Shown piece by piece: positions 30,500 to 37,319 of a stretch of 64,000 nt of DNA (position 1 is its first letter; each line of letters opens with the position of its first letter). Made by a program: the position numbers and the translations under genes. Source of the stretch: Nitrosospira briensis C-128 (GTDB taxonomy: Bacteria; Pseudomonadota; Gammaproteobacteria; Burkholderiales; Nitrosomonadaceae); assembly GCF_000619905.2 (NCBI RefSeq), contig NZ_CP012371.1, positions 1,984,001 to 2,048,000 of the forward strand. The letters are read 5' to 3'. The notes under the pieces are model-generated. The model worked only from the letters and a program-made list of their open reading frames with translations. It made no database searches and had not been told where the DNA came from.

Positions 30500-31326
30500 A
30501 AAAGTCACAGAAGCTCTGCAGTTTGGTTTGTGTCAGGTTCTCCAAAAATTGAAGAACTCCTGCACCTAATGTAAGAGAGTTTGTTGACGAGTCAGGAAAT
30601 CCAACAAAACCACTCTTCAGGTGAGTTTGGCCCGTAGAGGGGAATGCCTCCGCTCAGATCACCGGGGGAGTTTTCCAAGAAGCTCATATGAGCGCTATGC
30701 GCTTCAAAGCGTCTCCACAACGAAAACGAAATATGTCAAGCTTTGGGAGTCGACATCCGGAAAAGCGACTTGTTGAGTAGATCAGATTGAGGTGTGCGTC
30801 AGTTTTGATGTTATTTTCTGGTAATGTTCCACCGACGGCGTTGGCCGACTTCGCGATCATCCTAAATCTGCCGCGAAGCGAGTTCACCAAAAAGGTGAAG
30901 CTCACGGGGCACAAAAAATCCTTTTGTATTATGGTCTTAACTGAAAAAATGAGCGGTCAACTTCCGGATCTAGGATCCTTCCACATTTAAGCTTCGGTCT
31001 GGGAAAACTCACATCGATCGAGTCTTCAAAACAAATGCCGCTAAGCCAACGGTCGAAGATGTGATCAAGCTCGAAACCCAACAGCTACCATTTTTCCCTG
31101 GTTCATGGCTTGTTGGGAAGAGGCCGGATTCTAGCGTTCGGAGAGCCGAGACGAGTTGCTTGACATGGCAAGCCTGGAGCGAGCATGAGTACTATAAGAT
31201 TACTTCATCCTGTGGGAGCGTAATCTTGTCACCGAGTTCGGATGTGTTTTCAGCCGTGCTGATGGAATCACTACCAATGGATGCCGATCCGGTGGACCGG
31301 CTTGCTTTGATGATCAATTGAACTTT
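30500..31326. other. Decayed intergenic region with a repeat fragment
   Basis: About 830 bases without an intact gene. It contains a short relative (30859-30978) of the inverted-repeat element at 35358. From about 30982 one frame stays open to 31321 (reading ...GKTHIDRVFKTNAAKPTVED...) without a good start or family, possibly the remnant of a lost gene. The stretch separates the AT-rich methyltransferase from the GT4 gene and looks like a recombination scar. Confidence 0.5.
30859..30978 (+). repeat. Short/deleted copy of the inverted-repeat element
   Basis: It shares with 35358-35676 the left-end sequence ATCCTAAATC and the block AGCGAGTTCACCAAAAAGGTGAA, ...CACAAAAAATCCTT..., ATGAGCGGTCAAC and a right end TCCGGATCTAGGAT. 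The roughly 200-base centre of the larger copy is absent. The hairpin TTCACC-AAAAA-GGTGAA lies at 30883-30899. Confidence 0.7.
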
Positions 31327-33409: not shown

Positions 33410-34515
33410 AAAGTCTTTATTTGATTGCCGGGGCACGTCCGAATTTCATGAAAATCGCTCCCATAGTGCGTGCGTTACAAGCCCATGGCGGCTTGGCATA
33501 CAAGATTATCCATACCGGTCAACATTATGATCGCGAGATGAATGAGGTTTTTTTTGAGGAACTGGGCATCCCCCAGCCAGATGTCTTCATGGGAGCCGGT
33601 GGAGGTAGCCATGCACAGCAGACGGGCAAGATCATGCTGGTTTTTGAGGAACTCTGCGACACGGAGCGACCTGATGCGGTGCTGGTGGTCGGTGACGTAA
33701 ATTCAACATTGGCCTGCTCGATTGTAGCCAAGAAACTGGGTATCCCCGTGGCGCATGTAGAGGCCGGTTTGCGCAGCGGCGATATGACAATGCCGGAAGA
33801 GATCAACCGCGTGGTCACCGACAGCATTGCAGACTGGTTTTTCGTGACCGAGCCAAGTGGTATTGCGCACCTGAAGCGCGAGGGAAAGCCGGACGCGGCA
33901 ATTCATTATGCCGGTCACGTGATGGTGGATAATTTATTATACCAGGCGGAAAAGCTGGCTCGCTCCGACACCTCTGGATTTGAAACAAGCAATTTCAAGG
34001 CGGCGTATGCGGACAATGGTGCACAGTATGGGGTAGTTACCCTGCACCGGCCGAGCAATGTGGACAACGCCGGGATGCTTGCGCGTATCGCCAGCGCGTT
34101 GTGCGAGATAGCAACCGAACTGCCGCTGGTTTTCCCCGTGCATCCGCGTACCAGGGGAACTCTTGAAAAATTTGGAATCGATCTTGGGCCGAATATTACT
34201 CTGGTGGGACCGCAACCCTATATGAGCTTTCTTCATTTATGGAAAGATGCCGCTGTGGTATTAACCGACAGCGGCGGTCTCCAGGAAGAAACCACCGCGC
34301 TTGGCGTGCCATGCATTACCATCCGCGAAAACACCGAGCGGCCCGTGACGGTGGATGAAGGGTCCAATGTGGTGGCCGGCACGGACCCTGTACGAATCGT
34401 CGCCGAAGTACGGAAGATACTTCGCGGCGAAGGCAAGCAGGGCCGCCGGCCTCATCTTTGGGATGGTAGAGCCGCCCAGCGGATTGTCGAAGTGCTCGCG
34501 AGGGAATTGTCATGA
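33406..34515 (+). CDS. wecB: UDP-N-acetylglucosamine 2-epimerase (non-hydrolysing)
   Basis: A 369-residue enzyme converting UDP-GlcNAc to UDP-ManNAc. Family landmarks are GARPNFMKIAPI at the N-terminus, TGQHYDREM, VGDVNSTLACSIVAKK, HVEAGLRSGDMTMPEEINR, LHRPSNVD, DSGGLQEET and the TERPVTVDEGSN region. The GTG start at 33406 overlaps the previous stop as GTGA, whereas the open frame further upstream is just the other gene's shadow. It overlaps wecG by 4 bases. A broken partial copy lies at 36907. Confidence 0.93.
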   Translation: MKSLYLIAGARPNFMKIAPIVRALQAHGGLAYKIIHTGQHYDREMNEVFFEELGIPQPDVFMGAGGGSHAQQTGKIMLVFEELCDTERPDAVLVVGDVNSTLACSIVAKKLGIPVAHVEAGLRSGDMTMPEEINRVVTDSIADWFFVTEPSGIAHLKREGKPDAAIHYAGHVMVDNLLYQAEKLARSDTSGFETSNFKAAYADNGAQYGVVTLHRPSNVDNAGMLARIASALCEIATELPLVFPVHPRTRGTLEKFGIDLGPNITLVGPQPYMSFLHLWKDAAVVLTDSGGLQEETTALGVPCITIRENTERPVTVDEGSNVVAGTDPVRIVAEVRKILRGEGKQGRRPHLWDGRAAQRIVEVLARELS

Positions 34516-35270
34516 CGCGTCGCATTGAGATGATGGGCTGTAAAATCGATAATCTATCAATGGAAGAGACGTTGCAGACCATCGAGACATTCATTCAGAC
34601 TCGGGAGCCTCACCAGCATGTCGTTATCAATGTCAATAAGTTGGTCAAGGCCAGCCGCGACGATAAATTGCGCCGTATTATCAATGATTGCCAGTTGATC
34701 AATGTAGATGGGATGCCGATCGTGTGGGCGTCCCGGCTGCTCGGCAAGCCGCTAAAAGAGCGCGTAGCTGGCGTAGATGTGTTCGAATCGCTAATGCGGC
34801 GTTCAGCCGAGAAAGGTTGGCGCGTATACTTGCTTGGTGCTCGGGAAGACGTGGTTTCCACTGTAAAGCAGGTTTACGCTGGCAAGTATCCTGGTTTGAC
34901 CATTGCCGGACACCGCAATGGATACTGGAAGCCTGGGGAAGAAGCGGAAGTCGTCGAGCGCATTAAAGCCACGCAGGCGGACATATTGTTCGTTGCAATC
35001 AGTTCACCAAGAAAAGAGTATTTTCTCGGGCATTATCAGGCAGAGATGAAGATTCCGTTTGCCATGGGTGTTGGCGGCACTTTCGATGTGGCGGCGGGCA
35101 AGGTCAAACGCGCACCGGTCTGGATGAGAAATTCCGGTCTTGAATGGTTTTACCGGTTCCTGCAGGAGCCTCGACGTATGTTTAAACGCTATTTTATCGA
35201 AAACATGTTTTTTTTCTGGCTGCTGCTGAAAGAACTGACGCGGAAGAAGCAAGCAATTTATCTGCTTTAA
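34512..35270 (+). CDS. WecG/TagA/CpsF family glycosyltransferase (GT26)
   Basis: A 252-residue GT26 transferase. Seen are VVINVNKLVKASRD, the family block INVDGMPIVWASRLLG, VYLLGAREDVV, and DILFVAISSPRKE with GVGGTFDVAAGKVKRAP near the end. Relatives transfer ManNAc (TagA) or ManNAcA (WecG) to undecaprenyl-PP-GlcNAc. With wecB directly upstream (ATGA overlap) and no wecC-type dehydrogenase adjacent, ManNAc transfer is the simpler inference. A T8 run lies near its 3' end (35207-35214). Confidence 0.88.
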   Translation: MTRRIEMMGCKIDNLSMEETLQTIETFIQTREPHQHVVINVNKLVKASRDDKLRRIINDCQLINVDGMPIVWASRLLGKPLKERVAGVDVFESLMRRSAEKGWRVYLLGAREDVVSTVKQVYAGKYPGLTIAGHRNGYWKPGEEAEVVERIKATQADILFVAISSPRKEYFLGHYQAEMKIPFAMGVGGTFDVAAGKVKRAPVWMRNSGLEWFYRFLQEPRRMFKRYFIENMFFFWLLLKELTRKKQAIYLL

Positions 35271-35357
35271 TCCATTACTTCTATTTGTTGCTAACACTCA
35301 AAATGATCTAATTATTTCAAGTCCTTTTCGTTTGCGCCCGGCAGGCGCGAGTAGTCG

Positions 35358-35676
35358 ATTATCCTAAATCCGGCAGTTGGACGGGCGGAGTGAGCGGTTT
35401 TTGGGTGCAGGGCAAGACGCAACGACGCGGAATGGGCGCCCTGGAATGCGGTCGCGGCATCCCTTCGTTGCCCTATCCCCGCTTCGCGGGGTCCTCGGGC
35501 GACGCTCCGGGCGCCCATTCCCAAGGAGTTGCATCGCAGCCCTGTGCCGCAAAAACTGTTCAATCCGCCCCGGAGCGAGCTCACCAAAAAGGTGAGGTTC
35601 ACGGGTCATAAAAAATCCTTCCGGATTATGGGTAAAAATTTAAAAATGAGCGGTCAACTGCCGGATTCAGGATTAT
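35358..35676. mobile_element. MITE-like element with terminal inverted repeats
   Basis: A 319-base segment bounded by imperfect inverted repeats: the left end ATTATCCTAAATCCGGCAGT at 35358 and the right end ACTGCCGGATTCAGGATTAT to 35676, about 20 of 24 positions matching. The interior has nested dyads: GGAATGGGCGCC / GGGCGCCCATTCC arms around 35430-35522, CCCCGC-TTC-GCGGGG at 35477-35491, and CTCACC-AAAAA-GGTGAG at 35580-35596. No transposase is encoded. A shorter relative is at 30859. Confidence 0.7.
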
Positions 35677-35819
35677 GGGATCGAACCAGATTAGTGCTTC
35701 GTACTAACTTTGCCTTTGCTTCTGATAATATCTCACGCATGCGGATAATATTGGAACGTGTAATCCAAATCCGTATCCGAATCCGAATTTCGGCTTGAAG
35801 AATTTACCATACTTGATCT

Positions 35820-36830
35820 ATGGGCAAGGCGACAGTGCGCGTTAGCATTCTTATTAAGGCGCTCAACGAAGAGGCGCGGATTGGCGGTTGCCTGGCTGCT
35901 GCTGTGCGTGAGGCACAATCAATTAACGGGGAAGTGATTTTAGTTGACTCACTCTCAACCGATAGAACTGTTGAAATTGCGAGTCGCTACTCCGTTCGGA
36001 TTGTACAGTTTTTCCGCTTGGAAGACTGTGGCTGTGGCGCTGCGGTTCAGCTTGGGTATCAATTCGCGAAGGGGGATTACATTTATGTACTTGATGGCGA
36101 TATGGAGTTGCAGGCTGGTTTTATTGCCAAGGCATTGGCTATGCTGGAGGCGGAACCGGATCTCGCTGGGGTTAGCGGAAAACTTGTCGATACTCATATC
36201 CGAACCGCTGCAGATGCAAGACGTGCTCAGACAGTGGGGAACTTGAGCGAGCGAACAGAAGTGGATCATCTGGGTGGCGGCGGTCTTTATCGGCGCAAAG
36301 CGATCGAGTCCGTGGGTTATCTCGCTCATCGCTGGCTTCCGGCCTTGGAGGAGGCTGAGTTAGGCTTCCGCTTACATGCCGCGGGTTGGCGTCTAGTCCG
36401 ATTGCCCGACGTTGCGGTATTGCATACCGGCCATGCAGAATCAAGTCGGGAGATGCTTCGTAGACTTTGGCGGAATCGTCGTGCTCACGCTGGCGGCATG
36501 TTCCTGCGTTCTGCTTTTCGTAAAGCATGGTGGTGGCTTACTGTGCGAAACCAATGGCCGTTAATTTTTACACTTGCGATACATCTCGCGATCTTAGGGA
36601 TGGCAATCTCGTTCAGCAGCAGCTCGCTCAATATAATAAGTAAATGGCTGGTGCTGGAACTTGGCACTTGGATGAGTCTTTGGATTGCGCTCGGCATAAA
36701 GAAACGAAGCCTGTCATTTGCGGGGATTTCTCTCGTCAACTGGCACATCTTAACCTTTGCAGCGCTGCTCGGCGCAAGCCGGCCTCTAGCTGACCCGGAA
36801 ATACCTATTCCCGCGCGCGAAATCACGTAA
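35820..36830 (+). CDS. Glycosyltransferase family 2 with C-terminal membrane segments
   Basis: A 336-residue GT-A transferase: VSILIKALNEEARIGGCL at the N-terminus, nucleotide-binding region VDSLSTDRTVEIA, metal-binding VLDGDMEL and the acceptor-side LEEAELGFRLHAAGWRL with an EE/ED-like motif. Two or three hydrophobic helices lie after residue 240 (FTLAIHLAILGMAISF). It starts about 143 bases after the inverted-repeat element. Likely an inner-membrane-associated enzyme adding one EPS sugar. Confidence 0.85.
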   Translation: MGKATVRVSILIKALNEEARIGGCLAAAVREAQSINGEVILVDSLSTDRTVEIASRYSVRIVQFFRLEDCGCGAAVQLGYQFAKGDYIYVLDGDMELQAGFIAKALAMLEAEPDLAGVSGKLVDTHIRTAADARRAQTVGNLSERTEVDHLGGGGLYRRKAIESVGYLAHRWLPALEEAELGFRLHAAGWRLVRLPDVAVLHTGHAESSREMLRRLWRNRRAHAGGMFLRSAFRKAWWWLTVRNQWPLIFTLAIHLAILGMAISFSSSSLNIISKWLVLELGTWMSLWIALGIKKRSLSFAGISLVNWHILTFAALLGASRPLADPEIPIPAREIT

Positions 36831-36906: not shown

Positions 36907-37319
36907 TTGTCAAATGTCTTCATGGGCGCTGGTCGAGGAAGCCATACTCAACTGACCAGCAAGGCCCTGCTCGCTTTTGAGGAGTCTTGTCAGACAGAGC
37001 GGCCTGACGCGGTGCTGATTTTGGGCGATGTGAATTCAACATTGGCTTGCTCAATTGTGGCCAAGAAGCTGAATATTCCTGTAGCCGCGTTGAAGCGGGA
37101 CTGCGTAGCGGCGACAAAAGCATGCCGGAAGAAATCAATCGCTTGGTTGCTCACAGTATTTCGGACTGGTTTTTTGTTGGCTGTTCTGAGCAACACGGGA
37201 TATGAAATAACAGATTGTTTCTACAAGAATTATTCAGAACTGCCAAATCTCGGTTGGAAGACCAAGGCACTGAAACTGATGAAGACTTGACTCTAAGAGT
37301 GCTTGGAGGATTTCGCTAA
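36907..37319 (+). pseudogene. Chimeric remnant: wecB fragment fused to methyltransferase 3' end
   Basis: The first part reads VFMGAGRGSHTQLTSKALLA and ERPDAVLILGDVNSTLACSI, clearly a copy of wecB residues from about VFMGAGGGSHAQ onward. After IPVA the frame shifts by one base, and the correct reading continues VEAGLRSGDKSMPEEINRL to SDWFFVG. It then switches to a relative of the C-terminal end of the 29798 methyltransferase (NTGYEITDCFYKNYSELPNLGW versus DTGYDVVDYCYTNSSLELSNRGW), with a second frame break before DLTLRVLGGFR and a stop at 37317-37319. Not functional. Confidence 0.85.

Follow-up and report, generated by a model that had tools for sequence, protein, structure and literature searches.

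The two related segments that lie 4.5 kb apart in the 64,000-nucleotide stretch of Nitrosospira briensis C-128 DNA analysed here (the window) are very probably copies of a miniature inverted-repeat transposable element (MITE), which an IS1380-like transposase would have mobilised in trans. The first-pass annotation had called the longer segment a MITE-like element. In support of this reading, the element has defined ends, duplicates 5 bp of its target and is present in many copies, a relative has empty sites, and autonomous elements elsewhere have matching ends and an IS1380-like transposase. Contrary points are that six of the 65 copies have flanks agreeing at only three of five positions, and that no resident autonomous copy was found. 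In the mechanism that we favour, the trans-acting IS1380-like transposase would recognise the 17-bp ends (CCTAAATCCGGYAGTTG) and move the MITE into an A/T-rich, near-palindromic WTNAW target (mostly TTNAA or ATNAT), leaving a 5-bp duplication. The IS1380-like group is the probable mover, judging from sequence comparison, and the source of the transposase would either have been lost from the N. briensis C-128 genome or only have visited it.

Ends, target duplications and copies of the element

The longer segment, copy 2, had been described as a 319-base non-coding segment bounded by terminal inverted repeats of about 24 bases. Inverted ends are indeed present (35358-35379 against 35655-35676, 22 nt, 91% complementary), but their extent had been overestimated: the outer five bases on each side are the target duplication ATTAT/ATTAT, and the element proper is 309 bp long, with 17-bp terminal inverted repeats (CCTAAATCCGGCAGTTG on the left and CAACTGCCGGATTCAGG on the right) inside the 5-bp duplication (Table 1). 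Open reading frames overlapping it do not exceed 96 aa (ORFs listed from 80 aa). The shorter relative upstream, copy 1, was also confirmed, with 112 nt aligned at 81% identity. When copy 2 was used as a query, the genome (3,210,113 bases in one contig) gave matches with E values as low as 5e-54.

Table 1. Features of the two MITE copies and of the neighbouring EPS genes, in window coordinates (TIR, terminal inverted repeat; G040 and G048, genomes of relatives).
Feature	Position	Strand	Remark
MITE copy 2, 309 bp	35363..35671	+	Internally deleted relative of the 386-bp class, from alignment with 38 other copies
Left TIR of copy 2, CCTAAATCCGGCAGTTG, 17 bp	35363..35379	+
Right TIR of copy 2, 17 bp	35655..35671	-
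Left flanking pentamer of copy 2, ATTAT (target duplication)	35358..35362	.
Right flanking pentamer of copy 2, ATTAT (target duplication)	35672..35676	.
Internal hairpin of copy 2, CTCACC-AAAAA-GGTGAG	35580..35596	+
MITE copy 1, 114 bp, without most of the interior	30861..30974	+	Uninterrupted, collinear site in G040
Left flanking pentamer of copy 1, ATCAT (target duplication)	30856..30860	.
Right flanking pentamer of copy 1, ATCCT (target duplication)	30975..30979	.	4/5 identical
Internal hairpin of copy 1, TTCACC-AAAAA-GGTGAA	30883..30899	+
Methyltransferase	from 29798		Pfam
Group-1 glycosyltransferase	from 31318		Pfam
Polysaccharide lyase	from 32444		Pfam
UDP-GlcNAc 2-epimerase	from 33406		Pfam
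WecG/TagA-type glycosyltransferase	34512..35270	+	PF03808; 3' end 92 bp before copy 2
Family-2 glycosyltransferase	35820..36830	+	PF00535; start 148 bp after copy 2; at another place in the clusters of G040 and G048
UDP-GlcNAc 2-epimerase (wecB) fragment	36907-37287		PF02350, profile positions 40-95; downstream of the family-2 glycosyltransferase
NAD-dependent epimerase	from 37693		Pfam

It is evident from a genome-wide search with the terminal repeats that the family extends far beyond two copies. The end CCTRAATCCGGYAGTTG occurs 97 times without a mismatch (49 forward and 48 reverse; reversed-pattern control, 0), and the form CCTAAATCCGGYAGTTG is found 151 times at up to two mismatches (control, 0). 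The family is thus present at no fewer than several dozen places in the N. briensis C-128 genome. That the repeats reflect chance similarity or an assembly artefact is hardly conceivable in view of the empty controls and of exact matches to the ends in 14 of the 23 genus genomes.

At least 65 copies of 73-388 bp were delimited. The first 39 of them came from 40 loci found by similarity, one of which (L059) was dropped because its left end was not found at up to four mismatches. The further 26 are pairs of ends within 240 bp among 40 stretches picked around other ends among the matches listed; 14 of these stretches have one end only. The pair at 298365-298729, with a flank match of 3/5 or 2/5, was excluded from the count. 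The 65 copies group by size at about 386 bp, at about 236 bp and at 73-190 bp, a few being intermediate, and the 22 full copies of the 386-bp class have a mean pairwise identity of 92.6%.

The target duplications, for which the first-pass annotation had proposed to look, are clear across these copies. Both flanking pentamers are identical in 40 of the 65 and match at four of five positions in 19 and at three of five in 6, while 5/5 identity falls to 10.8% when left and right flanks are paired across different copies. WTNAW fits 119 of the 130 flank pentamers, TTNAA 62 and ATNAT 45. Since their centre base is repeated directly, not inverted, the pentamers are duplications and not part of the inverted repeat.

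Exact ends were found in 4 of 300 genomes sampled from the order, with N. briensis C-128 itself counted, and among named genomes the 5' end of the element occurs in Nitrosospira and Nitrosovibrio only (28 stretches, records of the own genome possibly excluded). Among the three other genomes of the order with exact ends, G218 holds a 237-bp MITE of the same class, which matches the consensus at 92% over 74 bp and 73% over 162 bp. G218 belongs to another family of the order, and its MITE (L174, 639-875) has ATGAT on both sides. This copy may be a sign of horizontal spread or of contamination of the G218 assembly. In G133 the exact end belongs to a 1476-bp element, whose right end it forms and whose IS1380-like gene has decayed, and in G258 it sits at a contig end. 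Mini-elements bounded by the same ends were also seen on three viral contigs (L244, 499-649, 151 bp; L245, 1906-2038, 133 bp; L246, 5215-5347, 133 bp), all with 5/5 flank duplications.

Empty sites and candidate movers

For ten of the 65 sites, the two flanks were joined as if no element lay between them, with one pentamer kept, and the resulting sequences were searched in the 23 genomes of the genus. In the relative G040, nine of the ten joined sites were found among the matches listed, with 78-92% identity; the site of copy 2 in the window is the one without a G040 match among them. At base level, eight of the nine G040 sites are uninterrupted, five with the identical pentamer and three with one or two differences. 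At the ninth (L115), a remnant of 55 bp is left, both ends included, with TTCAA on either side. The L115 site is uninterrupted in four of five further relatives inspected and has an unrelated spacer in G002. At another site (L058), the split matches in seven other genomes of the genus are unrelated spacers of about 94-260 bases, in which no MITE ends were found and no element is present. Copy 1 is absent from G040, where the aligned pentamer is ATTAT in a stretch of modest identity. The empty G040 sites imply that most of the inspected insertions arose, or were lost cleanly, since the lineages parted, and the 55-bp remnant indicates that internal deletion is one route of copy decay.

With regard to the mover, a fragment of the G133 gene used as a query matched 11 loci in G166, a further genome of the order. 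Of these 11 fetched loci, 10 contain a 1639-bp element with both of its ends, and the flank pentamers agree at 5/5 in six of them (ATCAC, TTTAT, ATGAA, ATAAA twice and CTCAA) and at 4/5 in four. The ends of this element match the MITE end at 14/17 and 15/17. One of the copies with 4/5 flanks (L189, 927-2636) has a duplicated left end 71 bp further out, and the outer pair is flanked by ATTAT at 5/5; this is possibly alternative end usage. On a viral contig (L243), a 1638-bp element has one end exactly like the MITE repeat, ATTAG/ATTAG flanks and an ORF of 514 aa. The ends of the decayed G133 element match the MITE end at 13/17 and 16/17 between TTAAT and TTAAA, and a Polaromonas plasmid has a copy that aligns with the whole G166 element at 82.3% identity.

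The three intact proteins tested (L197 of G166, L243 and the Polaromonas plasmid copy) score 84.9, 86.8 and 86.5 bits against PF13701 (cut-off 34.7), and their best NCBIfam match is NF033539 (IS1380) with 153.3, 153.4 and 155.5 bits. Because 153-155 bits lie below the curated IS1380 cut-off of 180, which none of the three reaches, the family label is uncertified, and the autonomous relatives may form a separate subgroup. An unrelated IS1380-type element of the genus has ends that match the MITE end at 8/17 only. Beyond the ends, the matches shared by the 386-bp consensus and the autonomous elements do not exceed 11-13 bases.

As to the matching transposase that had been asked for, an IS1380-like gene with near-identical ends occurs in G166, in L243 and, decayed, in G133, but none was found in the own genome. 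No autonomous copy with MITE ends was found in the N. briensis C-128 genome or in the loci examined from the 23 genomes of the genus, and two query transposase proteins gave no match in the former. A PF13701 search of the genome gave two fragments at 2695897-2696218 (L068-L070), without MITE-type ends around them; they are a remnant of an IS1380-type transposase in two pieces. Several other candidates were rejected. A 1840-bp pair of inverted repeats at 2248551-2250390 is not an autonomous element, as its right end belongs to a separate 236-bp MITE (2250155-2250390). No convincing inverted end pair, only scattered matches at 3-5 mismatches, was seen at 29 PF13701 loci from the family (L071-L099). 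The ends of a G002 element differ from the MITE ends, three fetched loci out of five identical weak matches in G030 all lack such ends, and G002, G046 and G060 gave distant or fragmentary matches, without the ends where inspected.

It is possible, though we would put it at somewhat less than an even chance, that the MITEs are an orphan family without a resident master element. Bursts would then occur only during the passage of an IS1380-like element on a plasmid or phage through a Nitrosospira cell; once this source of transposase is gone, the MITEs would remain and decay by internal deletion. The IS relatives on the Polaromonas plasmid and on the viral contig fit this possibility.

Improbable alternatives: EPS rearrangement by the copies and a structured RNA

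In the first-pass annotation, the two copies were seen to flank the shuffled part of the EPS locus and were thought able to have mediated its rearrangement. From the alignments, EPS gene order is variable across the genus and the window differs from its relatives. In G040 the order is methyltransferase, the stretch corresponding to 30703-31145, family-2 glycosyltransferase, the lyase-epimerase-WecG (wecB) block and NAD-dependent epimerase; the aligned parts of G048 have the same order, whereas the family-2 glycosyltransferase comes after wecG in the window. The order in G042 is different again, and in G030 and G034 the alignment covers only the lyase-epimerase-WecG block and then the NAD-dependent epimerase. 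The difference in gene order thus stands, but copy 1 is not at a breakpoint: it lies inside 30703-31145, which is collinear in G040, and gene order departs from that of G040 only rightwards of 31145. The stretch 30703-31145 is mostly without a long ORF call and 73-74% identical to the same place in G040, and is perhaps a decayed gene or a conserved intergenic region. Copy 2 lies in a 600-bp stretch without a G040 counterpart; neither 35238-35362 nor 35672-35845 had a counterpart there above noise, so that the order of events at copy 2 has to be read from its duplication alone.

It is improbable that copies 1 and 2 recombined, or acted as a composite element, and so rearranged the EPS cluster. 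The different place of the family-2 glycosyltransferase in the window and in G040 and G048 would agree with such an event, as would the bracketing of the 31.3-35.3 kb block by the two copies and the 4/5 agreement of the outer flanks, ATCAT and ATTAT. However, the flanks of copy 1 adjoin in G040 at the aligned ATTAT, which marks copy 1 as a simple insertion, and the perfect 5/5 duplication of copy 2, with a chance of about 11% of a coincidental match, implies that its flanks were already adjacent at insertion. Moreover, the copies are direct repeats, between which recombination would delete or duplicate, not reorder, and the order also varies among relatives without them (G042, G030 and G034). 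The wecB fragment at 36907-37287, which is 78% identical over 268 bp to part of the G040 epimerase block and is likely a relic of an older epimerase gene copy, suggests duplication or block replacement followed by loss; duplication of the block and then loss of the old epimerase copy would be more economical than mediation by the MITEs, for which we find no support.

The nested hairpins, also noted at first pass, were borne out by strong folding of the segment (-177.5 kcal/mol, compared with -119.2 ± 5.2 for 100 shuffles). On the other hand, the claim that both sides of the stem (CTCACC/GGTGAG in copy 2, TTCACC/GGTGAA in copy 1) had changed together, and hence that the structure is maintained, was not confirmed. 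In an alignment of 38 copies, from which L042 was excluded as it has no hairpin, the first stem pair is C-G in 30, C.A in 5, T.G in 2 and T-A in 1. All five copies nearest copy 1 besides copy 2 (L057, L032, L037, L040 and L053) have C...A, from which copy 1 differs on the 5' side only (C to T) and copy 2 on the 3' side only (A to G). By parsimony, C...A would be the older state, and the closest subfamily copies thus point to two independent one-sided changes instead of a compensatory one. The C...A stem is predicted to pair with one bulged A (a 32-base piece after L057 folds so). Over the six pairs of the stem, pairing is possible in 93.0% of cells and in 91.8% after shuffling, and 21 of 500 shuffles had at least as many two-sided pairs.

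That the repeat is a structured RNA or a regulatory element, retained for its hairpins like an mRNA-processing or terminator-type repeat and mobile only secondarily, is also distinctly improbable, though the case for it goes beyond the very stable fold. Among the 22 full-length copies, 9 of 133 pairs have two-sided change against 2.5 ± 1.4 in shuffles that ignore relatedness (none of 500 reached 9) and 1-5 in slid structures, and a crude ORF call places 3 of the 26 short copies inside ORFs but no long copy (0 of 39). Against this, the covariation term of RNAalifold is just -0.19 of -178.83 kcal/mol, paired cells amount to 97.5% against 97.0% in shuffles, and the single divergent copy L057 accounts for 5 of the 11 two-sided cells. 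The one-sided changes in the stem, the absence of the element at eight of the nine inspected G040 sites and an Rfam search at gathering score that found only four tRNAs in the window argue in the same direction. Arm-to-arm copying during replication of palindromes could mimic the two-sided excess. The simplest view of the nested hairpins is that they form the body of the element.

Place among known elements and significance

Elements of the IS1380 family normally have CCT-type ends and short (4-5 bp), A/T-rich target duplications. The MITE and its autonomous relatives resemble them in ends beginning with CCT and in 5-bp A/T-rich duplications, and the transposases of the relatives match NF033539 and PF13701 (DDE_Tnp_1_4). 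Unlike IS1380 insertion sequences, the MITE has no transposase gene, and the autonomous relatives stay below the curated NCBIfam cut-off. Intergenic palindromic repeats of the ERIC type are mostly intergenic and strongly foldable. Compared with them by general description only, the Nitrosospira MITE is likewise mostly intergenic and foldable, but has clear 5-bp duplications and a candidate type of transposase.

ISEcp1 and ISPme1 are named as members of the IS1380 family in PMC9330008. Like the bacterial MITEs in PMC6382973 (MITEAba12) and PMC4133298 (TIMEs), the Nitrosospira element is short, gene-less, multicopy and bounded by terminal inverted repeats, with target duplications and a transposase presumed to act in trans. 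It differs from both in its ends and interior, by description only, and no resident master was found. The 386-bp copies exceed the size of about 30-300 bp quoted for MITEs in PMC4133298.

Searches of open full-text literature for Nitrosospira together with miniature inverted-repeat, or with insertion sequence and repetitive, gave nothing, which is weak evidence as most subscription journals are outside their scope. Among the matches listed, there was no bacterial-MITE paper for MITEs in ammonia-oxidizing bacteria, and nothing on a Nitrosospira MITE family for IS1380 and MITEs. The available part of the finished-genome paper of N. briensis C-128 (PMC4964001) has no mention of transpos-, insertion sequence, mobile or MITE. 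The Nitrosospira MITE is a new family of a familiar kind.

Finally, the comparison of the two hairpins is a reminder that what looks like compensatory change in a pair of repeat copies can be an artefact of subfamilies. For a repeat family with members in 14 of the 23 genomes analysed from an ammonia-oxidiser genus, the full anatomy is now at hand, including ends, target, empty sites and the probable type of transposase. Its copies offer insertion markers at the level of strains, and the family offers a natural example of MITEs spreading with no resident master element.
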